Assembly (NCBI RefSeq): GCF_019974135.1
Contig: NZ_AP025017.1
Coordinates: forward strand, 1,736,001-1,800,000
DNA: 64,000 bases
Source: Actinomyces capricornis
Lineage (GTDB): Bacteria > Actinomycetota > Actinomycetes > Actinomycetales > Actinomycetaceae
Reading direction: 5' to 3'
The notes under the pieces are model-generated. The model made no database searches and was not told the origin of the DNA. It saw only the letters and a program-made list of their open reading frames with translations. The translations under genes and the position numbers were made by a program. Shown piece by piece: positions 11,641-60,898 of this stretch (within the stretch, counting starts at the first letter, position 1; each line of letters begins with the position of its first letter).

Positions 11641-12108
11641 GTGGCCATGCCGAGCCCTGGGGAGCCCTTGGGGCGCTGACCGATACCCGCCGTCCCCGGT
11701 CGCCGTGCCGGAGGACCTCATGTGCTGTGTCGGGCGCGTTGCTCTCCGGTGCGGGGCGGACCGTGGGGGAGGCCCTGACGCGATGCCGGCTCCCGCAGCC
11801 ATCGTCACCGGGCTCACACCCCGGTGCCGATCGGCGCGATGGCGCAGCAATGGAGGGGCGGATCACGCGCTGCGCGAAGGCCATGGGGACAATGAACCAC
11901 CCCATGGCGCCATCACCTCGTATACCCTTCCAGGGCGCTTGCGCGCAGTGCTCCACCGCGCGTGCGCATCACCGCGTCCCTGAGCGCCAGGAACGACCAC
12001 AGCAACTACCGGCAGCAATCCGCCGCCCGCCGGCGGCTGCAAGGGAGGGCGGCCCGGGCCGGCACGGCCCGCGCAGCCAGGAAGACCGGCAGGACGACCA
12101 GGAGAACC
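11641..12108. other. 468-bp intergenic region upstream of moxR
   Basis: No supported gene. A perfect inverted repeat GCCATGGGG (11880-11888) / CCCCATGGC (11900-11908) lies about 200 bp before the MoxR start, and a possible -10 (TATACC or TACCCT, 11921-11928) is just downstream. I see no good -35, so a promoter for the MoxR operon here is only plausible. Confidence 0.4.
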
Positions 12109-39586: not shown

Positions 39587-40450
39587 ATGAGTACCCGCAC
39601 ATCACCGACATCACCGAGCGGTTCGGAGGTCGTCCGGGCCCTGCCCGCCCTGGAGGCCCTCGACTTCCCCCACGCCCTGGTGGCCACCGGCGGTGGGCGC
39701 ACGCTCATCGAGGCCGGCGCGGTCGATGAGGTCTTCCCCCTGGCCTCGGTGACCAAGCCGATTGTTGCCTGGGCGGCGTTGGTCGCCGTCGAGCGGGGGA
39801 TGCTGGACCTGGACGATGAGGTGGGGCCGCCGGCGCCGGCGGGCGCCACGATCGGGCATCTGCTGGCCCACGCCTCCGGGATCGCCTTCGACTCCGACGC
39901 CCACCTGGCCGAGCCGGGTGCGCGCCGCATCTACTCCAACCGGGGTATCGAGATCCTGGGGGAGCGGCTGGAGGAGGCCACGGCCATGCCCCTGGAGGCC
40001 TGGGTGGAGTCTGTGGTCCTGGAGCCCCTGGGGATGGCCAGTGTCATGATCCCCGGCTCGCCCGCGTACTCCGGCGAGGGCAGCCCCCGCGACCTGGCGG
40101 CCTTCGCCCGCGAGCTGGCCGCGCCCCGCCTGGTCTCCCCGGCGCTCGCGGCCCGGGCCTGCGCCCCGGTCCTGCCGGGGCTCGACGGCGTCCTGCCCGG
40201 GTATGGGCGCCAGTCACCCAACGACTTCGGCCTGGGGGTGGAGGTGCGTGGGGCCAAGGCGCCGCACTGGACGGGCCGCGCCAACAGCGAGCGGACCTTC
40301 GGGCACTTCGGGCAGTCGGGCTCCTTCCTGTGGGTCGATCCCGTGGCGGGGCGCCAGGCGGTCTTCCTGGGGGCCGAGCCCTTTGGCGCCGTGCACCAGC
40401 GGGTCTGGCCGGAACTGAGCGACCAGGTGCTGGCCTTGGGTGGTGGGTGA
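39587..40450 (+). CDS. Serine hydrolase, beta-lactamase/DD-peptidase fold
   Basis: 287 aa. The class C-type Ser-x-x-Lys site is LASVTKP (Ser about 60) and the second motif Tyr-x-Asn is YSNRG. The third motif is probably HFGQSGS near residue 245. No signal peptide or lipobox is present, so it acts in the cytoplasm, as do many esterase-like family members. Start ATG 39587 begins the conserved part. Likely an esterase or peptidase; true beta-lactamase activity is unlikely without export. Confidence 0.8.
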   Translation: MSTRTSPTSPSGSEVVRALPALEALDFPHALVATGGGRTLIEAGAVDEVFPLASVTKPIVAWAALVAVERGMLDLDDEVGPPAPAGATIGHLLAHASGIAFDSDAHLAEPGARRIYSNRGIEILGERLEEATAMPLEAWVESVVLEPLGMASVMIPGSPAYSGEGSPRDLAAFARELAAPRLVSPALAARACAPVLPGLDGVLPGYGRQSPNDFGLGVEVRGAKAPHWTGRANSERTFGHFGQSGSFLWVDPVAGRQAVFLGAEPFGAVHQRVWPELSDQVLALGGG

Positions 40451-40522
40451 GCCCCGGCCCGGTTCTCGGTGTCGGGAAACGGGAGGCAGGCCGAACTGGG
40501 GTGATGGCGGTGGGGACGGCTC

Positions 40523-40741
40523 TTAGCCTGGTGTTGAGTTGTTACCGGTGGGAGGCGTGATGGTGGGTTGGGGTGTGTAGGCGGTTCTGGTCAGGAGGGT
40601 GGGGGCGCGTTTCTTGACGATTTGGGCCAGGTGCGGGGCGAGGCCGCGTGCGGCGGAGTCGTCCTTGAGCCATGGCGTGTCGATGACGACGGCGCTGTCG
40701 CCCTCGAACCAGCCCGCGCTGGCGTCGCCGTTGCCTGTCCG
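40523..40741 (-). pseudogene. B3: truncated third copy of membrane protein B
   Basis: The last 70 codons match the C-terminal parts of B1 and B2 (AGWFEGDSAVVIDTPWLKDDSAA, LAPHLAQIVKKRAPTLLTRT). The first two thirds, including the membrane helix, are missing. The break falls at GGACAGG, which is shared with the end of the IS scar beside it. The final Pro/Thr-rich end differs from B1 and B2 (TPPTGNNSTPG), so this was a distinct allele. No start codon or anchor remains. Confidence 0.8.
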
Positions 40742-40760
40742 AGAAACACCACCCACCCCA
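40734..40760 (-). mobile_element. Solo end (scar) of the type-1 IS3-family element
   Basis: On the minus strand this reads TGGGGTGGGTGGTGTTTCTC then GGACAGG, the terminal inverted repeat of the element at 41935-44634 with one change. No other IS sequence remains; the B3 fragment begins right where it ends. Suggests an insertion followed by deletion. Confidence 0.65.
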
Positions 40761-40770
40761 GAACCCCGCT

Positions 40771-41901
40771 TCAGTGTTTCCTGGTGTCTGGTTGGTGTCT
40801 GTTGAGGAGAATGTCGTGGAAGTAGGTGGAGGTGATGCTTGTGTCTGGGGGTAGGTGGATGGCCCAGGTGGTATAGGCCTGGCGGGTGGTGGTGTTGGTG
40901 GTGGTGAGGGTGGCTGTGGAGATGTCGTTGGGGTTGTCCATGTGCAGCCAGGGTTGGTTGTGGGCGAGGGTGGTGGGGATGAGGTTGTTCTTCAGGGCGA
41001 CGAGTGCGGCGGCGGCTCCGGTGTTGACTGAGCTGCTGGCGGCGTTGTCTCCGGATCCTGCTTTTTGGGCGTGTTTGTCGAGTCGGGCGAGGAGGTCGAT
41101 GTTGGTGTCGAAGGCTCTGGCGATGGCTTCTTCTTTGTCGTAGTTGGTGTAGGTGTCGATTCGTTTGTCGATGGTGGCTTGGGCTCGGTTGGAGGCGTAG
41201 GTGATGGTGCCTGCGGCGATGGTGGCCACGGTGGTGGTGTCTTTGGAGGCCTCGTTGATGAGCGTGGTCATATCGACGCCCAACTGTGTCGTATTCTGGC
41301 CGGTCTTGTTCTCCTGGCCCGGCACGATCATCGGGGCTGTTTGGTAGGGCTCACTTTCATCAACTCCTACAATACCGGGGTCATCCTCCGAAAAGACGGA
41401 TAGGAGTGTGAGTTCGGCGCCGCAGTTGGCCAGGATGGTGCCCACTGCCTGCCTGCCGGTGGTGGATAGGTAGGTGTGGTGCTGGGCCAGCAGCGTGATG
41501 CCCTGGGCGGTGACCCAGGAGGCCTTTTCATCGGTGTGCTGGGGGCTGGGGGTGCGCAGGGTGGCGACTTGGGCCAGGGCCTGGGCCAGGGCGTTGATGC
41601 CCTGGGAGCCCCAGTGGCGGTGGTGGAGGCCCTCCCAGCGGGTCAGGGCCTGGTCTGAGGGCGACCAGGCCTGGTCCTGGCTGGTGGTTGGCGGCTCGGG
41701 GGCGAAGTAGTCCAGTGCTGCGTTGGGGTCGGTGCTGAGCTGTTCGAGGCGGTGGGCCAGGGGATCCCTGACGCGCAGGTACCACCATGCGCCGCTGGTG
41801 ATGAGGGCCAGGACCAGCAGGGAGGCGATCACCCCCGCCCAGTGGCTCTTGAAGAGCAACCAGGACCGGGAGTCCGTCTCTGATAGTGACAGCGACCTCA
41901 T
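40771..41901 (-). CDS. A2: membrane-anchored protein related to the large WXG-like protein
   Basis: 376 aa. Short basic N-terminus, one membrane helix (WAGVIASLLVLALITSGAWWYL, residues about 22-43), then an outside domain. This domain aligns with about residues 300-560 of the 678-aa protein encoded at 47305-49341: NAALDYFAPE with EAALTYLVPN, ASWVTAQGITLLAQ with AAWITGNGITYLAD, and a shared helical region after it. Nearly identical to A1 except at residues about 189-205, the start of the loop after ELTLLSV, and the last 8 residues. Function unknown. Separated from B2, its normal neighbour, by the IS insertion. Confidence 0.8.
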   Translation of the reverse strand: MRSLSLSETDSRSWLLFKSHWAGVIASLLVLALITSGAWWYLRVRDPLAHRLEQLSTDPNAALDYFAPEPPTTSQDQAWSPSDQALTRWEGLHHRHWGSQGINALAQALAQVATLRTPSPQHTDEKASWVTAQGITLLAQHHTYLSTTGRQAVGTILANCGAELTLLSVFSEDDPGIVGVDESEPYQTAPMIVPGQENKTGQNTTQLGVDMTTLINEASKDTTTVATIAAGTITYASNRAQATIDKRIDTYTNYDKEEAIARAFDTNIDLLARLDKHAQKAGSGDNAASSSVNTGAAAALVALKNNLIPTTLAHNQPWLHMDNPNDISTATLTTTNTTTRQAYTTWAIHLPPDTSITSTYFHDILLNRHQPDTRKH

Positions 41902-42027
41902 GGGCGCTACTCTACTCGCCTTCGTGGTTGGCCCTGGAGTGCTGGGTGTTTTTCGGACTGTGGTTGTTATGTGGGTCAGGCTGCTTTCTGGTGTCCCAGG
42001 AGTTGGCGTTCGACCTCGTTGGGTGTG

Positions 42028-43447
42028 GGGCCTTACCCCCGTTGTGTGGACACGAGGTGTGTTTCATGCGGCGTTTTTCAGTGTAGCGGCGGCGGTGTTC
42101 TCGTAGGTGTCCGGAGGGATGTTGCCGATCGCGCTGTGGCGTCTTCGGGTGTTGTAGCGGCTGGCCCAGTGGAACACGCTCCTGTAGGCCGTCTCAACGT
42201 TGGGGAAGGCCTTGTGATCGGCGAGGAGCTCTCGCTTAAGAGTGGCATTGAAGGACTCGGCCAGGGCGTTGTCGGCTGACGAGCCGATGGCGCCCATGGA
42301 CTGGGTCAGGACCAGCTGCTCGCACAGGGCGGTGTAGGCCTTAGAGGTGTAGACCGAGCCGTGATCGCAGTGGAACACCGCCCCGGCAAGGCTGCCTGGT
42401 TGGGCGCAGGCATCCTTCAAGGCTTCCTCGACCAGCTCGGTGCGCATGTGGTCGCCCATCGCCCAGCCCACAAGCTTGCGCGAGCCCAGATCAATGACCG
42501 AGGCGAAGTACCCAGTGCTGCCGTCCTGGATTGGCAGATAGGAGGGGGCACCTCCCACGAAGTGGGGGAATATCGCCGACATACCGCCGGTATCGGCTCC
42601 CCGATGCGGAAGTCCCGACTGATGAGATCATCGAAGCGGCGGCCTGCCTGATCAGGGCGTGTGGTTCTCACCCGGCGGCGCAGGCGGGTGCCGGCCAGCA
42701 CGGCGCAGGCCATCACCCGGGCAACTCGTTTGTGACCCGCCCGCTGGCCTGCCGGTACGCCTTCGTTGAGCTCGGCGGTGATCCTGGGGGCTCCCTAAGC
42801 GCGGTCCCCGCCCTGGGCGGGGTCCTGCAGGGCCCGGATGCGCGCGGCCAGGGCCGCGTCTTCCCGGGCTCGCACCGCCCGCTTGGAGGCGCCCGCCCGC
42901 CATGCGCGGGCACGAGGAGCGGGCCGATGGCGATGATCTGGCACAACCGCTTCACGCCCCAGGCGCCCCTTGTGATCCCGGGCGAACTGGAAGCGGTTCA
43001 CCAGTTCGTCTCCCCCGCGAAACATGCTTGGCCGCCTGACGCAGGATGTCCCGTTCGGTGGTCAGCTTGGCCGCCTGGGCCCGCAAGGCCCTGTTCTCGG
43101 CTTCCAGGCGGGCGATCGCCTCGGCCGGGCTCTCCTGAGGATCTGGGGCTCGGTCAGTGCCCCCACTACCAGCGCCCGGCTTCAACGGGCTGGGAGCAGG
43201 CGCCCCACCCGGCACCGGTCTTGCGCCCCGTGCCATGCAACGCCAGCCACTGGCGCAGCGCCCCGCGGGTGATGCCCAGATCCTCGGCGATGCTGCGCAC
43301 CGTGGCCCCCGGCGTCGTCTCGTACAAGTCCACGCCCCCGACGCCGCAAGCTCCTTGGTGTAGGTCTTCCTGGCCCCAGCCAGATCATCTCGCTCTCCCC
43401 AGCCCCAAGGCCGGAATCAGCGTGTCCAACAACCAGGGTCAAGGCCC
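42028..43447 (-). mobile_element. Type-2 IS3-family element nested in the type-1 transposase gene
   Basis: 1420 bp. The ends are GGGCCTTACCCCCGTTG (left) and, reversed, GGGCCTTGACCCTGGTTG (right). A 3-bp direct repeat GTG flanks it exactly (42025-42027 and 43448-43450). Removing it and one GTG rejoins the type-1 transposase as GYRT-PNEVERQLLGHQ. This orders the events: type-1 inserted first, type-2 later. Confidence 0.85.
42064..43420 (-). pseudogene. Degraded transposase (OrfA/OrfB) of the type-2 IS3 element
   Basis: Fragments in several frames rebuild a normal IS3 pair. OrfA: a helix-turn-helix VRSIAEDLGITRGALRQWLAL (about 43320-43250) and coiled coil ARLEAENRALRAQAAKLTTERDILRQAAK (43150-43030). 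OrfB: VNRFQFARDHKG, KRLCQIIAIG, WRAGASKRAVRAREDAALAARIRAL, then an intact stretch from YLPIQDGSTGYFASVIDLGSRK to the end at 42064 with the last DDE residues (DHGSVYTS; NALAESFNATLKREL). At least five frame changes and a roughly 26-bp insertion near 42543-42572 make it inactive. Confidence 0.8.
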
Positions 43448-44566
43448 GTGCGGTATCCCAGGGCTGAGTGCAGGCGGGTGTGATTGTAGGTCAGCTCGAT
43501 CCATGAGGCAATATCGTTCATGGCTTTCTTGCGTGTGGGGTAGACCATGCGGTGGGCCCTCTCGTTCTTGAGTGTGGCATTGAAGGACTCTGCCCAGGCG
43601 TTATCCCAGCACACCCCGGTCCGCCCTACCGAGGCCCGGATGCCATACCTGTTCAGATGTGCCGAGAACTGCTCGGAGGTGTATTGAGAGCTCCGGTCGG
43701 AGTGGAAGATCGTCTCACCTCGGATAATAGGGCAGTTGCGCACGGCCATATCGATGGCCTCGCATACCAGGGAGGTTCTCATGTGATCAGCCATCGCATA
43801 GCCAACGACTTTCTTTGTGGCGCAGTCCCCGGCGGTGGCCAGGTAGACGAATCCCTCCCAGGTGCGGATATAGGTGATGTCCCCCACCCATTTCCTTCCC
43901 GGTGCCTTGGCGGCGGTAGTCGCGTTCCACCAGATCGGGCCTGGAGTTCACATCTGCGGCCGGGGTGGTGGTGCGGACCTTTCGGCGCGGCCTGGCGGCG
44001 ATCAGGCCGGCCTGGCGCATGAGGTAGCGCACCGTGTCACTGTGCACCACCACGCCGCGCCGTCCTAGGCGGGCAGTGATGCGCCGATACCCGTAGGTGC
44101 CATCAGAGGCCTCGAATTCAGCCCTGACTAAAGCCTCCAGCTCTTTTCTTCTGATATCCCGGCGAGACTGGGGGTGGCCTCTCCAGGAGTAGTATCCCGA
44201 GCGTGATACCCTCGCCCAGCGGCACATCGATGAGATGGGGTAGTTGCCTTCTTCGCGATTGATGAGATCGTACTTCTGACTCACTGCTGTTCCTTCGCGA
44301 AGAAGGCCGCCGCTTTTTTTCAGGAACTCGTTCTCCTGTTGCAGTTCGCGGACCTGCTTTTTCAGGCGGGCTACCTCTACAGCCTCAGCCGCTGCCTGCC
44401 TTTCCTCTTCGCTGCCGTGCTCCTTCTTGTGTTTCGCGACCCAGTTGCCCACGGTCTGGGGTACCAGGTCGTAGGAGGCGGCCACCGATGCGATCGACCG
44501 TTCTTTGTCGATCACCTCGCGCACCACCTGTGCCTTGAACTCCTCAGAGTACTTCGCCCTTGACAT
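43448..44566 (-). pseudogene. Transposase of the type-1 IS3 element, fused and frameshifted
   Basis: OrfA (MSRAKYSEEFKAQVVREVIDKERSIASVAASYDLVPQTVGNW, then a leucine-zipper-like KKQVRELQQENEFLKK) runs directly into OrfB (VSQKYDLINREEGNYPISSM) because the slippery run is A7; with A6, OrfA would end at FFAKEQQ and need -1 frameshifting. OrfB is then broken near 43908-43916, where an extra base changes the expected RAKAPGRKWVGDITYI. The 3' part (GDITYIRTWEGFVYL ... AESFNATLKNERAHR) continues in another frame to 43448, and the last codons (PNEVERQLLGHQKAA) lie at 41976-42024, beyond the nested IS. Confidence 0.85.
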
Positions 44567-44669
44567 GGCTCCATCCTATCGGATCAAAAGGGAGACGAAA
44601 ATATCCCCCTGTCCGAGAAACACCACCCACTCCACCTGAATGTCTACGGTGTGGTTGTGGTTCAATCGG

Positions 44670-45341
44670 TTATTGGGGTGAGGGTGTTGTGTCTGGTGGG
44701 CTCGGTGGTGGGGTGGGGGTGTAGCCTGTTCTGGTCAGGAGGGTGGGGGCGCGTTTCTTGACGATCTGCGCCAGGTGCGGGGCGAGGTCGTGTGCGGCGG
44801 AGTCGTCCTTGAGCCATGGCGTGTCGATGACGACAGCGCTGTCGCCTTCGAACCAGCCCGCGCCGGCGTTGCCATTTCCTGTCCAGTGCACAACAGTGGC
44901 GTTGCTGCCCGGGTTAATGCCGGGGACCTGCTCGCTGACTGCGCCGGGGATGGCGGCCCGTGATTCCAGGACTGTCATGCCGGTCTTCTTGGTCATGTTG
45001 CGGTCGGCCTGACGAGTGACCTCCACGGACACAGCCGCCCGATTCTCGCCATAAACGTAACATACCCAGTACGATTCTTCTTGCCATTCGGGTCCGTTGG
45101 CGGGGGCCCACGTGCCATGTGAGACCTCGCCGACGATGGGCTTCACGTCCTGGGTGGTCAGTGCCAGGCAGTAGGGCTCCCAATATCCGTAGTAGCGGCC
45201 CCATGCCCAGAAGGCGCCCCCACTGGCTGATACCAGGCAGACCACTACCAGGCTTGTGAGCCAGGGGTATGTCAGGGTGAAATGCTTGGCCCGCTGGGCA
45301 AGCAACCTGAGCCAGTCATTGGGATGCTCTTCCCTTGCCAC
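44670..45341 (-). CDS. B2: single-pass membrane protein of the repeat array
   Basis: 223 aa from GTG 45341. About 23 residues inside, one helix (YPWLTSLVVVCLVSASGGAFWAWG), then an outside domain with two cysteines (EPYCLALTT, YWVCYVY) that may form a disulphide, the segment GAGWFEGDSAVVIDTPWLKDDSA and a Pro/Thr-rich tail. It matches B1 almost exactly except for short clusters at residues 2-13, about 78-83, 102-110 and 171-175. The start overlaps a leftover piece of a large-gene 3' end. No known family recognised. B2's partner A2 now lies beyond the IS pair. Confidence 0.78.
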   Translation of the reverse strand: MAREEHPNDWLRLLAQRAKHFTLTYPWLTSLVVVCLVSASGGAFWAWGRYYGYWEPYCLALTTQDVKPIVGEVSHGTWAPANGPEWQEESYWVCYVYGENRAAVSVEVTRQADRNMTKKTGMTVLESRAAIPGAVSEQVPGINPGSNATVVHWTGNGNAGAGWFEGDSAVVIDTPWLKDDSAAHDLAPHLAQIVKKRAPTLLTRTGYTPTPPPSPPDTTPSPQ

Positions 45342-45405
45342 TTTCGATCCCTCCCTCGAATAGAGTCATGAGCTCCGCCGCCGGGACGCTTGGATCCGCC
45401 ATCCG
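45316..45405 (-). pseudogene. Leftover 3' end of a second copy of the large WXG-like gene
   Basis: In frame: MADPSVPAAELMTLFEGGIESGKGRASQ and stop (45402-45316), against MADPSIPAAELMDLFEGGIKDGKNTASE at the end of the intact gene. Upstream of it the similarity ends sharply at GGATCCGCCATCC (plus strand). It overlaps the B2 start just as the intact gene overlaps B1. It shows that the duplicated unit was large gene-B-A and that nearly all of the second large gene has been lost. Confidence 0.8.
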
Positions 45406-45464
45406 GAGCCCTGGATGGAGTGAGTCGCGGTGTGGTTGTTATGTGGTCAACGCCAGGCAGTTCG

Positions 45465-46592
45465 TCAGTGTGTGTTTGAAGGTTGGTGTCTGTTGAGAAG
45501 GATGTCGTGGAAGTAGGTGGAGGTGATGGCTGTGTCTGGGGGTAGGTGGATGGCCCAGGTGGTATAGGCCTGGCGGGTGGTGGTGTTGGTGGTGGTGAGG
45601 GTGGCTGTGGAGATGTCGTTGGGGTTGTCCATGTGCAGCCAGGGTTGGTTGTGGGCGAGGGTGGTGGGGATGAGGTTGTTCTTCAGGGCGACGAGTGCGG
45701 CGGCGGCTCCGGTGTTGACTGAGCTGCTGGCGGCGTTGTCTCCGGATCCTGCTTTTTGGGCGTGTTTGTCGAGTCGGGCGAGGAGGTCGATGTTGGTGTC
45801 GAAGGCTCTGGCGATGGCTTCTTCTTTGTCGTAGTTGGTGTAGGTGTCGATTCGTTTGTCGATGGTGGCTTGGGCTCGGTTGGAGGCGTAGGTGATGGTG
45901 CCTGCGGCGATGGTGGCCACGGCGGTGGTGTCCTTGGAGGCCTCGTTGATGAGCGTGGTCATATCGACGCCCAACTGTGTCGTATTCTGGCCGGTCTTGT
46001 TCTCCTGGCCCGGGACGATCATCGGGGTGGTCTGATAGGGCTCGCTATCATTAACTTTCCCTGCGTCAGGCCTGTCTTCTGGGAGGACGGATAGGAGTGT
46101 GAGTTCGGCGCCGCAGTTGGCCAGGATGGTGCCCACTGCCTGCCTGCCGGTGGTGGATAGGTAGGTGTGGTGCTGGGCCAGCAGCGTGATGCCCTGGGCG
46201 GTGACCCAGGAGGCCTTTTCATCGGTGTGCTGGGGGCTGGGGGTGCGCAGGGTGGCGACTTGGGCCAGGGCCTGGGCCAGGGCGTTGATGCCCTGGGAGC
46301 CCCAGTGGCGGTGGTGCAGGCCCTCCCAGCGGGTCAGGGCCTGGTCTGAGGGCGACCAGGCCTGGTCCTGGCTGGTGGTTGGCGGCTCGGGGGCGAAGTA
46401 GTCCAGTGCTGCGTTGGGGTCGGTGCTGAGCTGTTCGAGGTGGGGGGCCAGGGGGTCCCTGACGCGCAGGTACCACCATGCGCCGCTGGTGATGAGGGCC
46501 AGGACCAGCAGGGAGGCGATCACCCCCGCCCAGTGGCTCTTGAAGAGCAACCAGGACCGGGAGTCCGTCTCTGATAGTGACAGCGACCTCAT
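45465..46592 (-). CDS. A1: membrane-anchored protein related to the large WXG-like protein
   Basis: 375 aa, intact copy directly after B1. Same design as A2: helix at about 22-43, then an outside domain collinear with residues about 300-560 of the 678-aa protein. Differs from A2 mainly in one patch (SVLPEDRPDAGKVNDSEPYQ instead of SVFSEDDPGIVGVDESEPYQ) and in its end (HQPSNTH). Such near-identity over 1.1 kb of DNA points to recent duplication or gene conversion. No enzyme motif is visible. A decoy, receptor or anti-toxin role is a guess from the layout. Confidence 0.8.
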   Translation of the reverse strand: MRSLSLSETDSRSWLLFKSHWAGVIASLLVLALITSGAWWYLRVRDPLAPHLEQLSTDPNAALDYFAPEPPTTSQDQAWSPSDQALTRWEGLHHRHWGSQGINALAQALAQVATLRTPSPQHTDEKASWVTAQGITLLAQHHTYLSTTGRQAVGTILANCGAELTLLSVLPEDRPDAGKVNDSEPYQTTPMIVPGQENKTGQNTTQLGVDMTTLINEASKDTTAVATIAAGTITYASNRAQATIDKRIDTYTNYDKEEAIARAFDTNIDLLARLDKHAQKAGSGDNAASSSVNTGAAAALVALKNNLIPTTLAHNQPWLHMDNPNDISTATLTTTNTTTRQAYTTWAIHLPPDTAITSTYFHDILLNRHQPSNTH

Positions 46593-46658
46593 GGGCGCTA
46601 CTCTACTCGCCTTCGTGGTTGGCCCTGAATGTCTACGGTGTGGTTGTGGTTCAATCGG

Positions 46659-47330
46659 TTATTGGGGTGAGGGTGTTTTGTCTGGTGGGCTCGGTGGTGG
46701 GGTGGGGGTGTAGCCTGTTCTGGTCAGGAGGGTGGGGGCGCGTTTCTTGACGATCTGCGCCAGGTGCGGGGCGAGGTCGTGTGCGGCGGAGTCGTCCTTG
46801 AGCCTTCGTGTCTCGATGACGACGGCGCTGTCGCCTTCGAACCAGCCCGCGCCGGCGTTGCCATTTCCTGTCCAGTGCACAACAGTGGCGTTGCTGCCCG
46901 GGTTAATGCCGGGGACCTGCTCGCTGACTGCGCCGGGGATGGCGGCCCGTGATTCCAGGACTGTCATGCCGGTCTTCTTGGTCATATTGCGGTCGGCCTG
47001 ACGAGTGACCTCCACGGAGAGGGCAACTCGATTATGACTGGAGATGTGGCATACCCAGTACGATTCTTCTTGCCATTCGGGTCCGTTGGCGGGGGCCCAT
47101 GTTCCGCGTTTGACCTCGCCGAGGAAGGGTTTCACGTCCTGGGTGGTCAGTGCCAGGCAGTAGGGCTCCCAATATCCGTAGTAGCGGCCCCATGCCCAGA
47201 AGGCGCCCCCACTGGCTGATACCAGGCAGACCACTACCAGGCTTGTGAGCCAGGGGTATGTCAGGGTGAAATGCTTGGCCCGCTGGGCAAGCGACCTGCG
47301 CCGGTCATTCGGAGGCCGTGTTCTTACCAT
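46659..47330 (-). CDS. B1: single-pass membrane protein of the repeat array
   Basis: 223 aa, type-II topology like B2: basic start MVRTRPPNDRRRSLAQRAKHF, helix YPWLTSLVVVCLVSASGGAF, outside domain with cysteines at EPYCLALTT and YWVCHISSH, Pro-rich C-terminus. Its first 26 bp overlap the last codons of the large gene, so they are co-translated. The A1 gene follows by about 65 bp. Changes relative to B2 are clustered in four short patches, while the rest is identical, a pattern typical of a specificity-determining surface. Not recognised as any known family. Confidence 0.78.
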   Translation of the reverse strand: MVRTRPPNDRRRSLAQRAKHFTLTYPWLTSLVVVCLVSASGGAFWAWGRYYGYWEPYCLALTTQDVKPFLGEVKRGTWAPANGPEWQEESYWVCHISSHNRVALSVEVTRQADRNMTKKTGMTVLESRAAIPGAVSEQVPGINPGSNATVVHWTGNGNAGAGWFEGDSAVVIETRRLKDDSAAHDLAPHLAQIVKKRAPTLLTRTGYTPTPPPSPPDKTPSPQ

Positions 47331-49341
47331 CTTTTATCCCTCCCTCGAATAGGTCCATGAGCTCGGCCGCCGGGATGCTCGGATCCGCCATCCAGGCATT
47401 GAAGTCCTTTTGATTCTTCTCCGACCCCATCACCGATTCGATATCGATCCGATGATCCGGCCCCATCCAGTCGAATTTTGTGGAGTAGTCGACCGGTGGG
47501 TCGTCATGATTGATATAGGCGCCATCAGGGAGTCTGTCGTTGTTGGCAAGCTGGGCGATCATCGACTGATTGATCGCGGTCTTTGATTCGGTCTCCATAT
47601 CCTTGACGGTCTCGATTCGCGATAGGGCTGCGTTGTTACTGGCCTCTGTCAGGCCTGGTGTGATCGCTGAAATTCCGACTGACATTCCCTGGGCTGCCGG
47701 ATGGGGCACTGCTGAGAGCCCCGCACTGAAGCCGCCTAGGATGCTGGAACTGACGATCTCTGTCTGTTTATCCTGAAGACTTCGAGAATCGATGGCCGAC
47801 TGGGAGATGAAGCCGAGCAATTGGCCGTCCCTGCGAGCGCCGTCCTTGAGGGTGCCATCCATGTCACTGCCGTCACCGAGAATAGCTCTCGGGTAGGCGT
47901 CGATGATCGCTTGGGTGCGTGCTGTCGAGTGGCGCCCAGCGGCGTTGGAGAGGGTGGTCAGTGCGGCGTCATCAGAGCCGACAATCCCGGTTAGCTTACT
48001 GATGTCCGCTGAATGATCCCCCTGAAGGCCGGCAGGAAATTGAGAATAGAAGGGCGAGGTTTCTTGTGTGCTGGAGTTAGTTGCGTGCTCCTCGACTTCC
48101 CGCATGGAGTTCCCGATAATAATGGCAATATTCTTCTTCTCCTTGGGTGAGTAGTCAGTACCCTGGTCGGCGAGGTATGTGATGCCATTTCCGGTGATCC
48201 AGGCTGCCCGCTCATCAGTGGATCCCTCGGCGTCGAGCACCCGGAGCGCTGAGGCGCCCCCAATTGCTCCGGTAAATCCTAGGCGCCCCTCGGGGCTCCA
48301 GTTCCGGGAGGAGAGGCGATCCCACCGCTCCTGTGCGGCAGCTCCTGGGAGCCAGTAGCCATCAGCGCCCATCTCGCCGTTGGGAACCAGATATGTCAAT
48401 GCGGCTTCGGGATTGTTGCCCATTGCGGTGAGGACGCCGGCCATTGGATCTGGGATTGAGGTTTTATTGGGGTGAACTTGATCGTGGGCGCGGATAGCGT
48501 CGTAGGGGCGCTCCTCCAGCCGATCGGCGAGATCGACCAGGAATTCCGTGCCGAAGTATGTCTCGGGGGCGGTCAGAAGATGATTGAGCCTTGTTGTCAT
48601 CAGAATGGTGTCGTCACCCTGAGTGGCCTCGTCGTACATCTTCGCCAGAGAGGCGCCACTGCCCTCGTTCTGCGTGGCGGCGGCTAGATTATGTGCCAGT
48701 ACAGGGATGTGCGCTGGGTCCAGATCGTTCTGCAGGTTCAAATACCCCTCGGGCGTCCATGTCGTCACAAAAGTGAGGCCATATGTTAGGACGTCCTGAT
48801 GCTTGGATATCTCAGCCATGATCTCATCGACTGTGCGCCCCTTGCTCGACTTCCCGTTCTCGATGGCCTCAATGAGCTCCGCCGATTCCGCCCTGGCGTT
48901 CTCCACGGACTTCGAGTTGTACTCCCGCACGTTCGTGGCCGTGTCCATGTTGTTCCAATAGGCCTCGGTGTCCACGGTGCCCTCCGGAGGGTCAGGCAGG
49001 TAGTAGTAGTAGCTGAGGGTCCCGTCGTCGTTGGTCATGGTCACGCCGGAGGAGTTGAGGTTCCGGGCCTCCTGGCTGCGAGTGCGCAACTCTTCAGCAA
49101 GGTCGCGCAGTCCCTGTGCCGCCGCGTTGAATGTCGTTGCGGCACCGAAGCCAAAGGGGGAGGCTTGCACCGGAGCTACCGAGAATGCTTCCGTTGCAGT
49201 CACGACCGAGGGCACAGGATCATGGTTGTCGGAACTCGTGTTGTCGATATTCTTCCGCTCCTCCTCCACCGCCCCGGAGCGCTCCTCAAGGTTGCTGGCG
49301 ACAGTGTCCACCTTGTCGGGGTCGATCTTAATGAAAGCCAC
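47305..49341 (-). CDS. Large WXG100/LXG-like secreted protein candidate
   Basis: 678 aa from GTG 49341, which has AAAGGAG 7 nt before it. Residues 1-105 are helical and look like a WXG100/LXG start (FIKIDPDKVDTVASNLEERSGAVEEERKNI, then FNAAAQGLRDLAEELRTRSQEARNL). A middle part (about 110-300) has TWTPEGYLNLQNDLDPAHIPVLAHNL. A third part (about 300-560) is the domain shared with A1 and A2. The last 110 residues include a Gly/Ala/Ser-rich stretch (SSSILGGFSAGLSAVPHP) that may insert in membranes. No signal peptide and no known toxin motif. Base composition is lower in GC than neighbours, suggesting transfer. It may be exported by type VII secretion. Confidence 0.72.
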   Translation of the reverse strand: MAFIKIDPDKVDTVASNLEERSGAVEEERKNIDNTSSDNHDPVPSVVTATEAFSVAPVQASPFGFGAATTFNAAAQGLRDLAEELRTRSQEARNLNSSGVTMTNDDGTLSYYYYLPDPPEGTVDTEAYWNNMDTATNVREYNSKSVENARAESAELIEAIENGKSSKGRTVDEIMAEISKHQDVLTYGLTFVTTWTPEGYLNLQNDLDPAHIPVLAHNLAAATQNEGSGASLAKMYDEATQGDDTILMTTRLNHLLTAPETYFGTEFLVDLADRLEERPYDAIRAHDQVHPNKTSIPDPMAGVLTAMGNNPEAALTYLVPNGEMGADGYWLPGAAAQERWDRLSSRNWSPEGRLGFTGAIGGASALRVLDAEGSTDERAAWITGNGITYLADQGTDYSPKEKKNIAIIIGNSMREVEEHATNSSTQETSPFYSQFPAGLQGDHSADISKLTGIVGSDDAALTTLSNAAGRHSTARTQAIIDAYPRAILGDGSDMDGTLKDGARRDGQLLGFISQSAIDSRSLQDKQTEIVSSSILGGFSAGLSAVPHPAAQGMSVGISAITPGLTEASNNAALSRIETVKDMETESKTAINQSMIAQLANNDRLPDGAYINHDDPPVDYSTKFDWMGPDHRIDIESVMGSEKNQKDFNAWMADPSIPAAELMDLFEGGIKDGKNTASE

Positions 49342-49410
49342 GGCAGAACTCCTTTGCATTCATTTATCGCGAGAGACAAGAAATGTGGGTGAGGTGGATT
49401 GGCAGCATAC

Positions 49411-49725
49411 TCAGGAGCGCGGCCACTGCGCCTCGGGTGAATCCTTGTCGACATATTCGAGACCACTGTAGATAATGGCGTTCTTCGCGCTGGTGATATC
49501 CTGCGTCAGAGTGGATAGAATCGTGTCCACTGCGCCGACGCGTGTGGAGATCTTCGAGCGATAATCGTCCGCCACTGGTGAGGACCACACCTCCTCAGCC
49601 AGGCCATCGTCAACAGTGTCAGAGATTGCGCCCGACGATGATGAGGACCACAGGCTGAGGTTGGTCCGGGAGAGCGTGACCCGGTCTTCCACCGCCTCGA
49701 TCGCCACCAACTTAGGATTCCTCAC
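49411..49725 (-). CDS. Small WXG100-like protein
   Basis: 104 aa from GTG 49725 (its GTGA overlaps the stop of the short ORF before it); GAAGG lies 4-5 nt upstream. Predicted as a helical hairpin: two amphipathic helices joined near EEVWSSPVADDYRSK, where Trp-Ser-Ser replaces Trp-x-Gly. This size and design match Esx-type partners that pair with a larger WXG or LXG protein for type VII export. The large gene follows by about 70 bp. Assignment rests on shape, not a clear motif. Confidence 0.6.
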   Translation of the reverse strand: MRNPKLVAIEAVEDRVTLSRTNLSLWSSSSSGAISDTVDDGLAEEVWSSPVADDYRSKISTRVGAVDTILSTLTQDITSAKNAIIYSGLEYVDKDSPEAQWPRS

Positions 49726-49802
49726 TTGGCCTTCCGGGCCCCCTCGTCATCGGCCATGGCGGAATATCCTTCCCACGGCTGTTCATCGACTTCGCTGAGC
49801 AT
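49722..49802 (-). CDS. 26-codon ORF leading the WXG-like operon
   Basis: Encodes MLSEVDEQPWEGYSAMADDE then GARKAK. AAGGA lies 7 nt before the ATG at 49802, a TATAGT -10 box lies further upstream, and the stop overlaps the next start as GTGA. These features support translation, perhaps as a coupling leader. The peptide is acidic then basic with no recognised domain. It is too short to judge by codon use. Confidence 0.45.
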   Translation of the reverse strand: MLSEVDEQPWEGYSAMADDEGARKAK

Positions 49803-49823
49803 ACATCATCCTTACGCCATGCG

Positions 49824-49829
49824 ACTATA
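49824..49829 (-). promoter_or_regulatory. Candidate -10 box of the WXG-like operon
   Basis: TATAGT on the minus strand, about 22 nt before the 26-codon ORF. No convincing -35 is seen 16-18 nt upstream. Confidence 0.45.
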
Positions 49830-49955
49830 GCGGTCAGTCGTGACGATCGCTGAATGCGACGGGCTCTGCGTGTGCTCGCGCTTTATTTATCACGATCACA
49901 AGGGCGCGACCTCATATGCATGAACGTCTCAGGTAGATGTCAGCATATATTCAGA

Positions 49956-50774
49956 TTAATGATGATCCACGTCCACGATCACCGGCACGTGGTCCGAGGC
50001 GCCCTTGCCCTTGCGCTCATCGCGGTCGATGGCGGCGCTGAGCACCCGTCCGGCCAGTGCGGGGGAGGCGTAGACGAAGTCGATGCGCATCCCCTCGTTC
50101 CTGGGGAAGCGCAGCTTCTGGTAGTCCCAGTAGGTGTAGTTGGTCACCCGCTGGCGGGTCACTTCCTCCATGCCCACCGACTCGAAGGCGGCGAAGGCCT
50201 CCCGCTCAGGCGCCGAGACATGCGTCGCCCCCTCGAAGGCCCCCATATCCCACACGTCCTCATCGTGCGGCGCCACATTCCAGTCCCCCACCAGGGCCAG
50301 GGGCAGGTCCGGTGCCTCGCCCAGCCAGGACCCCGCCGCCTCGCGCAGGCGCTGGAGCCACTGGAGCTTGTAGGCGTAGTGCGGGTGGGTGAGCTCGCGG
50401 CCATTGGGCACATACAGGCTCCACAGCCGCACCGGGGACCCGGAGCCGGCGGACCCGCCCACGCTCGCCCCCAGTGCGCGGGCCTCCACCACGGGATCGG
50501 CCCCCTCCTTGGCCGCCCAGGCGGGTTGGTGGGGGAAGGAGGTGACGACGTCGTCGAGCCCCACCCGCGAGGCGATCGCCACCCCGTTCCACTGGTCCAG
50601 TCCGTGGACGGCCAGCTCGTAGCCGGCGGCCTGGAAGGGCTCGCGGGGGAACTGCTCGGGGCGGCACTTGATCTCCTGCATCGCCAGGGCATCGATGCCC
50701 TCGCGCTCCAGGAAGGCCAGGACGCGATCGACGCGGGTACGGATGGAGTTGACATTCCACGTGGCAAGGCGCAT
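49956..50774 (-). CDS. xth: Exodeoxyribonuclease III (AP endonuclease)
   Basis: 272 aa. Cleaves DNA at abasic sites and removes 3' blocking groups in base excision repair. MRLATWNVNSIRTRVDRVLAFLE, QEIKC with the metal Glu, LVGDWNVAP with the Asp and Asn, and the final GASDHVPV with the catalytic Asp-His are all conserved. Start 50774 follows a TACCCT box by 6 nt. The gene is convergent-free and monocistronic, divergent from the SDR gene. Confidence 0.93.
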   Translation of the reverse strand: MRLATWNVNSIRTRVDRVLAFLEREGIDALAMQEIKCRPEQFPREPFQAAGYELAVHGLDQWNGVAIASRVGLDDVVTSFPHQPAWAAKEGADPVVEARALGASVGGSAGSGSPVRLWSLYVPNGRELTHPHYAYKLQWLQRLREAAGSWLGEAPDLPLALVGDWNVAPHDEDVWDMGAFEGATHVSAPEREAFAAFESVGMEEVTRQRVTNYTYWDYQKLRFPRNEGMRIDFVYASPALAGRVLSAAIDRDERKGKGASDHVPVIVDVDHH

Positions 50775-56749: not shown

Positions 56750-57799
56750 CTACTGCTGGAAGCGGGAGGGGTCCTCCGGCTGCTGCCAGGGCTGGGGCTG
56801 CTGGGGCTGCGGTACTGCACTGTCGGGTGCCTGGGGTGCGGCGGGCCACGGCTGCTGGGGAGCCTGCGGCACCGGCCCCTGACCGGGGGTCTCCTGCCAG
56901 GCCCCGGGCTGCTGGGGGAGCCCGCCGTCGACCGGCGCGGCGGGGCTCTGGGGGCCGATCGGCGCCGCTGCGGCGGCCTGGGGCTGCGGTGTGGCGCTGT
57001 CGGGCATCTGGGGCGCGGCGGGGAACGGTCCGGCGGCCTGCGGGGCACCGGGGTCGGGCAGGACGGCCGGCCCGGGCTGGGGCGCCGCACTCGGGGGGAG
57101 CCCGGCAGCGTCCCCTGCGGCAGCGCCGGCCTTCCTCCGGCCGAGCAGGACGATCGCCACGATGGCCCCGGCAATCACCAGCACCCCGATCACCCCGAGG
57201 ATGATCCACAGCCACGGAATGCCCGAGGGCGAGTCCTGGCCGCGCACGACGTGGCCGCCAATGGAGTCGAAGGACACCGAGTTGCCCGTGACCGTTCCGC
57301 CGTCGGACTCGGTGACCTCCCCGGGGAAGGTGACGGTCAGGCTCATCCTGACCTCATCAGAGCCGGCGAAATCGCTGGTGTCCACGACATACTCGTCGTC
57401 CTCATGGGTGATGAGGCCCTTGGTCTGGGAGATCGGCTCGGAGCCCGTGACCTTGCAGGTGCGCATGCCGTCCTCCTCGGTGAACTCGGCCGTTCCGTTG
57501 CTGAGCCGGGTGCCGCCCGAGGAGAAGGACTCGATCGAGCACTGGTCCTGCGTGATCCGCGGCGTGCTCGACCGGTCGATGAACACCATCTTCAGGGAGT
57601 AGGTGTCATCGGAGTTGATGGTGATATCGAAGGAGATGTCGTAGTCGTCCTGCGTGCTGCTGCTCGCCGCCAGGGCGTGCCCGAGGGGGGAGGGCAGGGT
57701 CAGGACCAGCGCCAGCATGAGGGGCAGGACCAGTGGAAGGGACTGCGCGAGCGCGCGGAGCGCACGGTGGGCGCGGCGCACGGAGGACACGGGGTTCAT
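56750..57799 (-). CDS. LppM-like membrane protein with long Pro/Gln tail (copy 1)
   Basis: 349 aa from ATG 57799. Signal sequence (about 12-40), then an outside LppM-like domain with repeated beta elements: DISFDITINSDDTYSLKMVFID, a disulphide-type pair of cysteines, THEDDEYVVDTS and MSLTVTFPGEVTESDGGTV. One helix follows (LWIILGVIGVLVIAGAIVAIVLL), then about 120 cytoplasmic residues rich in Pro, Ala and Gln. First described for mycobacterial LppM; the role may be in lipid or envelope handling. Last of four related genes on this strand; identical leaderless promoter to copy 2. Confidence 0.78.
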   Translation of the reverse strand: MNPVSSVRRAHRALRALAQSLPLVLPLMLALVLTLPSPLGHALAASSSTQDDYDISFDITINSDDTYSLKMVFIDRSSTPRITQDQCSIESFSSGGTRLSNGTAEFTEEDGMRTCKVTGSEPISQTKGLITHEDDEYVVDTSDFAGSDEVRMSLTVTFPGEVTESDGGTVTGNSVSFDSIGGHVVRGQDSPSGIPWLWIILGVIGVLVIAGAIVAIVLLGRRKAGAAAGDAAGLPPSAAPQPGPAVLPDPGAPQAAGPFPAAPQMPDSATPQPQAAAAAPIGPQSPAAPVDGGLPQQPGAWQETPGQGPVPQAPQQPWPAAPQAPDSAVPQPQQPQPWQQPEDPSRFQQ

Positions 57800-57805
57800 G
57801 GCACC

Positions 57806-57811
57806 ACCGTA
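57806..57811 (-). promoter_or_regulatory. -10 box of a leaderless promoter (LppM-like copy 1)
   Basis: TACGGT then GGTGCC then ATG 57799 on the minus strand; the same 15 bases occur at copy 2. Confidence 0.6.
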
Positions 57812-57909
57812 GCCGCAGCGTGATCTTCCTGTGAATTCAGCGGGGCTCACTCCACTGCGGATCCCCACTGGATCCCCAGTGCGGACGACCATTGCGCGGC
57901 GGTGAAGGC

Positions 57910-57946
57910 CTCGGGCCCCGACCAGCGGTGCTGGTCGGGGCCCGAG
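57910..57946 (-). terminator. Terminator of LppM-like copy 2
   Basis: CTCGGGCCCCGACCAG (57910-57925), a 5-nt loop and CTGGTCGGGGCCCGAG (57931-57946): a perfect 16-bp stem about 30 bp after the stop of the gene at 57977. Confidence 0.7.
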
Positions 57947-57976
57947 GACGGCGGGGCGGCTGAGGGCCGGATCGGC

Positions 57977-58744
57977 TCACTGCTGCGGGTACTGGCCCTG
58001 GGGCGGGTACTGCCCACCGGGCTGCTGTGGGAACGGAGGCTGCCCACCGGGAGCGCCGGGCTGACCGGGCGCCGCATAGGGCTGGGCGAACTGAGGCTGC
58101 GAGTTCTGCTTCTTCCTACCCTTGAGCACGATGGCCACGATGGCGCCCACCACAGCGGCCACAATGACCAGGCCGATGAGGATCCACATCCACGGCAGGC
58201 CGGCGGAGTCCTTGCCGCGCACCACCTGCTGGTTGAGCTTGTCGAAGGACACGGTGTTGCCCTCCACCGTGCCTCCGGCCGCCTCGGTGACCTCACCGGG
58301 GAAGGTCACCGAGTAGGCGATCTCGACGCTGCCGGTGTCGCCCGAGGTGGAGCTCATGTCCACGACGTACTCGTCGCCCTCGTGGGTGATCACTCCATCG
58401 CTGTCCGAGATCGGCCCGCTTCCCTCGATGATGCAGGTGCGCTTGCCGCCCTCCTCGGTGAAGGTGGTCGTGGCATTATCGGGCACATTCCCGCTGCTGC
58501 TGGAGGACTCCTGGGCGGCCGTGCAGTTCTCCTCGGTGAAGATCGCCGGATCGGAGCTGTCCACAATGGTGACCTTGGCGTCATAGGTGTCATCCGGCTT
58601 GACCGTGAGATCGATGGAGATCGTGTAGTCGATACCCATGCCGGATGCCGCATGAGCCGGAGCCACGGTCAGCGTGGAGACGAGGAGGAGCAGGAGCGCG
58701 GCGATGACGGCCCGCGCGCTGCGCATTGGGGAGGAGAGAGTCAT
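57977..58744 (-). CDS. LppM-like membrane protein (copy 2)
   Basis: 255 aa from ATG 58744. Signal peptide (VIAALLLLLVSTLTVAPAHA) followed by the LppM-like domain (YTISIDLTVKPDDTYDAKVTIVD, THEGDEYVVDMS, IAYSVTFPGEVTEAAGGTVEGNTVSFD), a helix (MWILIGLVIVAAVVGAIVAIVL), a basic turn GRKKQ and a short Gln/Pro/Gly tail. Closest relative of copy 1. Own promoter and terminator, so it can be expressed alone. Confidence 0.78.
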   Translation of the reverse strand: MTLSSPMRSARAVIAALLLLLVSTLTVAPAHAASGMGIDYTISIDLTVKPDDTYDAKVTIVDSSDPAIFTEENCTAAQESSSSSGNVPDNATTTFTEEGGKRTCIIEGSGPISDSDGVITHEGDEYVVDMSSTSGDTGSVEIAYSVTFPGEVTEAAGGTVEGNTVSFDKLNQQVVRGKDSAGLPWMWILIGLVIVAAVVGAIVAIVLKGRKKQNSQPQFAQPYAAPGQPGAPGGQPPFPQQPGGQYPPQGQYPQQ

Positions 58745-58750
58745 GGCACC

Positions 58751-58756
58751 ACCGTA
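58751..58756 (-). promoter_or_regulatory. -10 box of a leaderless promoter (LppM-like copy 2)
   Basis: TACGGT, 6 nt before ATG 58744 on the minus strand. Confidence 0.6.
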
Positions 58757-58871
58757 ACGGCCCGGACGGCGCCTGGGAAGGCTCTGCCGATGGTGCATGC
58801 TCCCCACAGCCCGCGCCCCGAGCCCGGTCGCGCAGCCAGGCCGCGATCCCCGCCGCACGGCCCCGGCGGGG

Positions 58872-60050
58872 CTAGTTGTACTGACCGGGGACGTCCGGAG
58901 GACGGTACGGCTCGCTGTGGGGATCGCTGTAGGGCAGCGGCGCCTGGGGCATGTGGCCCGCCTGCGCGGGCGGCGGCACCTGGTAGACGGACGGCGCCTT
59001 GTCCCGGAAGGCGCCATCCGCTCCGGGTCCCGGGGGTGTGTGCTGGACGGGCTGGTAGGGGCCGGCGGGGGAGGGGGAGATGTACCCGGGTGTGGGGGAC
59101 TGGGGGTAGGGCTCGTCGAGCGGGACCTGGGCGGAGCCGGCCCCCATCGCGGCCTCGGGCAGGCCAGGTGAGTCCCCCGTGGTCGGGGGCTGACCCGGCT
59201 GGAGGAACTGGCTGTAACCGGCGCTGGCCGGCGCGGAGGCGACAGGCGGGTACTGGCCCTGAGGAGCCGGTGCGGTCAGCGGGTAGACCGAGGACGGGGA
59301 CGCGCCGGAGGCTGATGGGGCTGAGGGGGCCTGTTCCTGCATGAGGTGGCGGAGAGCAGTGCGCTCGGCCCGCTTGCGCCGGCGGTTGGCCATGATGCTG
59401 ACCACCGTGAGCGCCGTCATGAGGAGGACAAGGGCGGTGACGACGACGGACGCGACCGTCACGGAGAAGACCGAGCCGTCGTGCCCCCGCGCCTCCAGCC
59501 TCTCCGAGGAGCTGGTCACTCCCCGCCAGGTGACGGTGCTGCCATCGATCTCCCCATTGGCGGAGCTCACCTGACCGGGGAAGGTCACCGAGACGTTCGC
59601 CGTCATTCCCGCGGCGGCCTCGGCGCCCCCCGCCTGGGACAGTGCCGAGGGGGACAGGGAGAACACGTACTCGCGCCCCTCATGGGCCACGCTCCAAGCC
59701 GTTCCCTGGTCATCCAGCTCGGACAGGGGGATGGCCGAGCCGCTGATCTCGCAGGCCGGGCTCTTGCCGTGGGTGGTGTAGGTGTAGGTGGTTCGGGTCC
59801 CCGGGGGCAGGGGTGAGGAGTAGGAGGACATCGTCTCCTGTGTGCAGGTCTCCTCCGTGATGAGCTCCAGGCCGGAGGAGTCCCAGACCGTGTAGGTCAG
59901 GTCCACCGTGTCGTCGTCGTGGATGACGACGTCGTACTCCACCCCGCAGGCGGACAGCAGGACGAGGGCGAGCATCGCCGTCGCCCAGCCGAGGGGGCGT
60001 ATCCGGGTGGGCCGGCCGGGCCTGTGCTGAGCCGAGCGGTGAGTCCTCAT
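58872..60050 (-). CDS. LppM-like lipoprotein with cytoplasmic tail (copy 3)
   Basis: 392 aa. The lipobox is LLSACGVEYD (Cys about 35). The LppM-like domain follows (VIHDDDTVDLTYTVWDSSG, YSSPLPPGTRTTYTYTT, ANVSVTFPGQVSSANGEIDGSTVTW), then a helix (VTVASVVVTALVLLMTALTVV), a basic turn NRRRKRAER and about 150 residues rich in Pro, Ser and Gln. Having both a lipid anchor and a C-terminal helix is unusual. ATG 60050 follows TAGACT by 6 nt. Confidence 0.76.
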   Translation of the reverse strand: MRTHRSAQHRPGRPTRIRPLGWATAMLALVLLSACGVEYDVVIHDDDTVDLTYTVWDSSGLELITEETCTQETMSSYSSPLPPGTRTTYTYTTHGKSPACEISGSAIPLSELDDQGTAWSVAHEGREYVFSLSPSALSQAGGAEAAAGMTANVSVTFPGQVSSANGEIDGSTVTWRGVTSSSERLEARGHDGSVFSVTVASVVVTALVLLMTALTVVSIMANRRRKRAERTALRHLMQEQAPSAPSASGASPSSVYPLTAPAPQGQYPPVASAPASAGYSQFLQPGQPPTTGDSPGLPEAAMGAGSAQVPLDEPYPQSPTPGYISPSPAGPYQPVQHTPPGPGADGAFRDKAPSVYQVPPPAQAGHMPQAPLPYSDPHSEPYRPPDVPGQYN

Positions 60051-60056
60051 ACTCCG

Positions 60057-60062
60057 AGTCTA
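60057..60062 (-). promoter_or_regulatory. -10 box of a leaderless promoter (LppM-like copy 3)
   Basis: TAGACT on the minus strand, 6 nt before ATG 60050. Confidence 0.55.
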
Positions 60063-60183
60063 GAGCGAGTGAATCAAGGGGCAATCGTCTTCGGCGCGGT
60101 CTCACGGCCCCTGGGCGTCTCCACGACTGGACGCGGAGCGGCGGGCCGTCAGTGGGATGCGGGAGCGCCGGCACCCGCGGCGC

Positions 60184-60885
60184 TCAGGAGCGGGCCCGCC
60201 GGCGCCGCCGCACCGCCGCCACTCCCACGCCGGCGCCCGCCAGCACCAGGGCGCCTGTCAGCCAGCTGCCGGCGCGCTTCCACCACGGCACGCCGCGCGC
60301 CTGCTGGGCGTAGCCCGAGGCGCTCACCCCATCGACCAGGACGTCGGCGTCCTCCCAGGTCACGGTGCTGCCGTTGATCCGGCCGCCGCCGTCGGCCCGC
60401 GTGACGGCGCCGGGGAAGGACACCGAGGCGCGGGCCTTGACCACGGAGTTGAAGGAGCCGTCCTGGCCCTGGGCGGCGCCCTGGGAGGAGTCCGCCCCGA
60501 AGGCGGGGATCGTGACGGTGTAGAGATCCCCGTCGCGCACCACCAGGGCGCCCTCGGCGGCCTGGGAGGCGTCGGGAACCTTGACGCCGGTGATGGTCAC
60601 CAGGCAGCCGTTGCCCTCCTGCCCGGTGAGGACCTCAGTGTCCACCGAGGTGCCCTCGGGGATGTTCATGGCGGTGGGGTCCTCGTAGGCCGAGCAGTCA
60701 GGGGAGGGCCCGAAGGTGGAGCCCGTGGTGTCCCGCATCTCCAGGACGACGTCGTAGGCTCCCTGGGCCGAGATGGTCATGTCCATCGTCGCGGTGCACC
60801 CGGCCAGCGCCAGGCAGGCCGGGACCACCAGGGCGGCGCGCATGCCGAGGCGGGGCAGTCGGGTCAGGCGGGCGCGGCGGAGCAT
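60184..60885 (-). CDS. LppM-like lipoprotein (copy 4)
   Basis: 233 aa from ATG 60885; an upstream GTG (60894) lies inside the -10 box and was rejected. Signal with lipobox LALAGCTATM (Cys about 30). Conserved parts: ISAQGAYDVVLEMRDTTG, VVRDGDLYTVTIPAFG, ARASVSFPGAVTRADGGGRINGSTVTWE, then a single helix (WLTGALVLAGAGVGVAAV) and an Arg-rich end. The shortest of the four copies, without a long tail, and so nearest to mycobacterial LppM. It is divergent from PEP carboxykinase. Confidence 0.78.
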   Translation of the reverse strand: MLRRARLTRLPRLGMRAALVVPACLALAGCTATMDMTISAQGAYDVVLEMRDTTGSTFGPSPDCSAYEDPTAMNIPEGTSVDTEVLTGQEGNGCLVTITGVKVPDASQAAEGALVVRDGDLYTVTIPAFGADSSQGAAQGQDGSFNSVVKARASVSFPGAVTRADGGGRINGSTVTWEDADVLVDGVSASGYAQQARGVPWWKRAGSWLTGALVLAGAGVGVAAVRRRRRARS

Positions 60886-60892
60886 GCCCAGC

Positions 60893-60898
60893 ACGCTA
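60893..60898 (-). promoter_or_regulatory. -10 box of a leaderless promoter (LppM-like copy 4)
   Basis: TAGCGT on the minus strand, 7 nt before ATG 60885. Confidence 0.5.

Follow-up and report, generated by a model that had tools for sequence, protein, structure and literature searches.

A DUF6571 gene array in Actinomyces capricornis as a candidate type VII-linked polymorphic effector cassette with tethered partner proteins

We analyzed a 64,000-nucleotide stretch of DNA (hereafter, the window; positions 1736001-1800000, G000:C1) from the closed 3.17-Mb genome of Actinomyces capricornis, which carries an array of four kinds of genes, here named W, D, B and A. With moderate confidence, we consider this array probably to be one of several polymorphic effector cassettes, in which the large protein D would be a type VII-exported and probably antibacterial effector, B the immunity protein, tethered to the membrane, and A likewise tethered proteins related to the C-terminal module of D, with an EssC-like ATPase serving the system. 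If so, Actinomyces would hold a large and variable repertoire of type VII effectors and tethered immunity proteins, and would do so outside the Firmicutes, the group in which such systems were worked out. The family DUF6571 would then become a set of testable effector/partner pairs, with a case of an effector's own module being reused as a tethered protein.

D (47305-49341, minus strand, 678 amino acids (aa) from a GTG, or up to 49359, 684 aa from an ATG) matches the Pfam family DUF6571 (PF20211; E 5.3e-65, 220.7 bits against a cut-off of 27 bits). This is the sole family above its cut-off, and there is no Pfam match to LXG at the N-terminus. The AlphaFold2 model (pLDDT 78.3, pTM 0.76) is all-helical and starts with an N-terminal helical hairpin, behind which 39 of 49 D proteins show a YxxP[DE] motif; a likeness to the solved structure HP0062 was set aside as not significant (E ~1). 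The exchangeable C-terminal module, with no recognised catalytic motif, carries a hydrophobic Ala/Val-rich segment. The glycine-zipper pattern GxxxGxxxG occurs in 4 of 49 such segments, a count that 34 of 500 shuffles reach, and GxxxG is not enriched (255/500 shuffles); a looser [GAS] pattern is enriched (174 versus 140 +/- 12; 1/500 shuffles), which makes the likeness to a glycine zipper a weak hint.

DUF6571 matches were found in 27 of the 49 genomes of the genus, in 26 of them above the cut-off, with up to 19 matches (not genes) and several distinct D per genome; yet no description of a role for the family was found in the literature searched, from which its name is absent. Among 200 genomes of the bacterial family, the domain is present in 20 of the 37 listed members of the genus and 3 of the ~163 others, and among 296 genomes of the phylum in three, one being the window's own. 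A housekeeping function was rejected on these counts, together with the 22 of 49 genus genomes that have no match. Matches to the C-terminal part only were seen in two distant genomes of the phylum and in G095, G181 and G194; in G181 this part occurs in an array of lipoprotein-like open reading frames (ORFs). The G181 locus, which lies outside the genus (L144:4990-15558), codes for an 896-aa DUF6571 protein, and behind it come four ORFs of 655-675 aa that are lipoprotein-like and have the same C-terminal part. Gene calls came from a simple caller of our own, which missed some low-GC genes.

The D proteins are modular, with a conserved N-terminal part and an exchanged C-terminal part, the arrangement by which polymorphic toxins are recognised. 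When the N-terminal (residues 1-200) and C-terminal (330-713) parts were compared separately, 7 of the 20 pairs with at least 55% identity in the N-part had less than 40% in the C-part (6 of 17 minus repeats), whereas the reverse, a close C-part with an unrelated N-part, was seen in none of 8 pairs (0/6 minus repeats). Two neighbouring D genes of G048 are 99% identical in the N-part and 25% in the C-part; the window D and the D at 72355 of the same genome share 57% and 21%, respectively. Matrix correlations across 47 D showed that W follows the N-part (partial 0.48, p 0.0003) and not the C-part (partial -0.03, p 0.74; raw W-to-C 0.13, p 0.007). Conversely, the gene downstream of D follows the C-part (partial 0.42, p 0.0003) rather than the N-part (0.10, p 0.066) across 30 D, a set in which several of the 48 downstream genes are doubtful calls. 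The partials became 0.52 for C and 0.11 for N (N p 0.049) when two doubtful calls were dropped (28 D), and 0.57 and -0.04 when the set was thinned to 24 D; correlations of 0.34 (all-module) and 0.25 (raw N-to-B) were also obtained, both with p 0.0003. The type of the immunity-like gene tracks the C-part of D, as in polymorphic toxin/immunity systems, with adjacency as a confounder.

The 104-aa W (49411-49725, minus strand) is a WXG-like small protein and the presumed export partner of D. The 20 aligned members of its family share an invariant Trp in a W-x-[SG] motif, which reads W-x-S in the window protein. The preliminary description had called it WXG100-like: a WXG-like gene does head the locus, but neither W nor the 20 family members match Pfam WXG100 at E<=0.1, and W has no family match in Pfam or NCBIfam. 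Two further assignments were discarded, an ESAT-6-like fold by solved structures (E 0.22, ranked behind ten apolipoprotein chains and not significant) and a YxxxD/E-type signal (11 of 62 W). Full-length D accounts for 51 rows in 20 genomes, and in 49 of these rows a match to W lies directly upstream with a gap of -3 to 136 bp; the two rows lacking it are in G031 and G032. These counts of D, W and A order cover many of the genus's DUF6571 loci but not every one, and the 51 rows include two repeats from overlapping loci. The same gene order does recur in other Actinomyces, a point that the preliminary description had proposed to check.

In the window's genome an EssC-like ATPase of ~1550 aa is encoded at 2.22 Mb (locus ~2.21-2.23 Mb, L065:749-13600), behind a Tad-type set in which Pfam recognised T2SSE, two T2SSF and two TadE. 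A membrane protein of 864-891 aa, with no informative Pfam or NCBIfam match, lies between this set and the ATPase, and the same order recurs in the other listed loci of what we term group (i). This group was delimited by score against the window genome's ATPase: full-length members reach at least 1641 bits, other EssC-like ATPases 388-549 and EccC-type ones 207-233. For two group (i) ATPases the best NCBIfam model is EssC TIGR03928 (512 and 531 bits, under its cut-off of 778 bits). Among the matches listed, which extend down to E ~1e-29, group (i) is present in 22 of the 27 DUF6571-positive genomes and in none of the 22 negative ones (p 1.6e-9, uncorrected for ancestry). EccC over its cut-off shows no association with DUF6571 (14/27 positives, 8/22 negatives, p 0.39).

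Moreover, in 12 of the 22 group (i) genomes D follows the ATPase directly in the same orientation, with W between them (the D match of G029 falls in a short frame, and the W of G011 was identified separately). The W-D pair of G014 lies ~2 kb behind a broken ATPase; W and D are found on the opposite strand within 12 kb in G009, G023, G033, G034 and G041, and a D piece or W within 3 kb in G012 and G028. The stretch examined around the ATPase of G002 has no W or D, and a DUF6571 match lies ~19 kb away on the same contig. The linkage to eccC/essC genes that was to be looked for is seen for the EssC-like type, by adjacency and co-occurrence; for EccC there is no co-occurrence association. Together with the W-D order and the co-variation of the C-part with the downstream gene, the link to the EssC-like type agrees with the earlier impression of an effector/immunity cassette. 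No type VII system of this kind in Actinomyces appeared in the literature searched, judged by titles and abstracts; PMC9436818, as far as its accessible part goes, uses 'Actinomyces' for the mycobacterial type of type VII secretion.

A second type of EssC-like ATPase, with 388-549 bits to group (i), different neighbours and in one case an FHA domain, was also observed in G047, G045 and G018 (L081, L083 and L084). A WXG-like gene of 97-98 aa lies near it in L081 (G047) and L083 (G045).

B, the presumed cognate immunity protein, is encoded at 46659-47330 (minus strand), overlapping the end of D, and combines a transmembrane (TM) anchor with an alpha/beta domain. Across loci, B-type genes code for TM or lipobox proteins of 200-250 aa, come in many types and in multiple copies, and often follow D with a 4-base overlap. 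The searches of Pfam and NCBIfam with B gave chance-level or membrane-segment matches only; structural alignments of its AlphaFold2 model (pLDDT 72.3) point to a possible Mog1/PsbP-like fold. In G034, G023 and G009, ORFs of 824-829 aa join a start of B type to a stretch of DUF6571 in one frame; these fusions are lipoprotein-like and lie behind W-D-B genes (L134, L135 and L136, being G023, G034 and G009).

A (45465-46592, minus strand, 375 aa) combines a TM anchor, by TM pattern, with the C-terminal half of DUF6571 (profile positions 328-580; E 2.4e-19, 69.8 bits). The second copy (40771-41901, minus strand, 376 aa, 96% identical) is absent from the DUF6571 matches at E<=1, but both copies match our own-built D profile. 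Weak matches of A to DUF7721, Colicin_V and thiolases were dismissed as far under their cut-offs. Hence, the kinship of A with the large protein proposed at the outset is upheld, while the statement that A and B belong to no family holds, in Pfam and NCBIfam, for B and fails for A, which belongs to DUF6571 like D. Across the loci covered, 32 ORFs have only the C-terminal half; for 26 of them a full D lies upstream on the same strand at no more than 12 kb, and a TM or lipobox pattern is seen in 23, anchors having been assigned by simple sequence patterns. The first A copy has only 17 residues at the position of the hydrophobic segment of D, and 16 of the 32 ORFs have no more than 17, which is true of none of the 49 D. 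The segment is mostly retained in the A proteins of G031, and its loss in A is not general.

All genes of the window array lie on the minus strand, in the transcription order W, D, B, A, a scrap of the D tail, B, transposase ORFs, A and a B fragment. The scrap (45322-45405, minus strand, 75% identical to D residues 650-677) is a DNA repeat ahead of the second B (44670-45341, minus strand, 90% identical to the first); the B fragment (40523-40756, minus strand) is 71% identical to B residues 143-218. The transposase ORFs between the second B and the second A (42064-44566, minus strand), with the Pfam domains rve, HTH_Tnp_1 and HTH_21, are presumably of IS3 type. At the DNA level, the two A genes form a repeat of 1153 bp (96.6%), D tail plus B one of 770 bp (93.1%) and the B fragment one of 180 bp (92%); these duplications far exceed chance. 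Every gene and duplication of the preliminary description was recovered in place; its duplicated unit of large gene, B and A was not, and resolved instead into a D tail-B repeat and a separate A repeat.

The array lies in an accessory island of ~9.5 kb (40448-49965), in agreement with the IS elements, duplications and lower GC content noticed earlier (62.1% against 72.4% in the remaining window). The island is absent from G003, the closest relative compared, in which the DNA match ends at 40447 and restarts at 49966 with ~0.5 kb between, and whose versions of two flanking proteins show 97% and 98% identity. Elsewhere in the window, four adjacent minus-strand genes at 56750-60894 have signal- or lipoprotein-like starts and appear by eye to be tandem paralogues. 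A second W-D-B-A-B locus lies at ~71-80 kb of the same genome (L009:7152-15980). Part of it lies between two 203-aa ORFs that look identical and point in opposite directions (7152-7763 and 12034-12645), and insertions may have split one of its B genes and its A.

These features suggest a tentative mechanism. W and the N-terminal hairpin of D would form a helical export complex, with YxxP[DE] as the likely signal and the 2.22-Mb ATPase as the exporter. Outside, the C-terminal module of D would hit related cells nearby. Its most likely site of action would be the membrane or envelope, given that the module is all-helical, has no recognised catalytic motif and bears the hydrophobic segment. B, tethered outside the membrane and paired with D by co-variation, would bind the cognate C-terminal module and protect the producer, and the arrayed A proteins might counter other variants, either as decoys or as spare modules. 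The present array would have been built by D-tail recombination and transposon insertion. A bolder version, which we regard as rather unlikely, holds that immunity is itself effector-derived: tethered A proteins, half of which have no hydrophobic segment, would pair with incoming D and poison an assembly at the membrane, with B as a type-matched second line. Actinobacterial type VII antagonism would thereby gain a new kind of system, with an EssC-like ATPase behind Tad genes.

Several observations weigh against the effector-cassette reading. No toxin fold was recognised in D by its AlphaFold2 model or structure comparison. The adjacency confounder is such that W and the downstream gene each track the part of D beside them. 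The window A proteins share 23-24% identity with the window D and more, 33%, with the D at 72355, and for the A at 77096 the window D is the closest match (36%). There is no W or D near the ATPase of the window's genome, which lies ~440 kb from the array. Finally, G003, G004, G016, G018 and G045 are DUF6571-positive with no group (i) ATPase among the matches listed, the sole match in G018 being below the family cut-off. The first of these points, along with the all-helical structure of D, the anchored A downstream of D (26/32) and the several distinct D per genome, would also suit a D that is exported by type VII secretion and works at the surface or in the envelope, in adhesion, recognition or uptake as PE/PPE proteins do, with A as anchored versions, B as an assembly partner, and immune or phage pressure rather than toxicity behind the diversity. 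We hold this to be a doubtful though tangible possibility, against which the B type tracks the C-terminal module and B-type genes are multi-copy, like immunity genes.

It is improbable that W-D-B-A is type VII-linked in general and that the window array is a decaying, functionless mobile island. The D scrap, B fragment, transposase ORFs, the gap in G003 and the distance from the ATPase would fit decay, but the frames of W, D, two A and two B are open and complete, and the same genome does possess a group (i) ATPase. We give still less credence to D and its relatives not being type VII substrates and the ATPase association reflecting shared ancestry. The co-occurrence statistic lacks a phylogeny correction and the five genomes without group (i) would be in keeping with this; against it stand the direct adjacency in 12 of 22 genomes, the N-terminal hairpin with YxxP[DE] in 39 of 49 D, and the absence of an EccC association.

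Among the systems with which the effector-cassette reading can be compared, as far as the accessible parts of the cited reports describe them, LXG toxins such as TelC and TelD have small helical proteins (Lap1/Lap2) that are encoded upstream and bind the effector N-terminus, with immunity genes near the effector (PMC9600955). W parallels these by position; however, D has no LXG match and a single W, not two partners, precedes it in the loci examined. EsxX with ExiCD/ExiAB (PMC12744356) and TelE (PMC10434224) have a non-enzymatic, membrane-acting C-terminal part and membrane-located immunity versus the outside form. The hydrophobic segment of D is a possible parallel, albeit with the glycine zipper in just 4 of 49. 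The esaG, tsaI and tipC arrays line up immunity genes that are non-identical and evolve by inter-copy recombination (PMC9484751), whereas the arrays here mix B with effector-derived A genes, A and D both being members of DUF6571 (PF20211). The nearest characterised parallel, by analogy, is TslA with TilA of Staphylococcus aureus. TslA is an effector that leaves the cell by type VII secretion and has small helical partners; its immunity protein TilA is an extracellular lipoprotein whose gene occurs in variable tandem copies (PMC10730906). TslA is a phospholipase of reversed domain order with its partners encoded behind it (PMC10730906), whereas D has no recognised enzyme fold and W lies in front; A, the relative of the C-terminal half of the effector, has no counterpart in the accessible part of that report.
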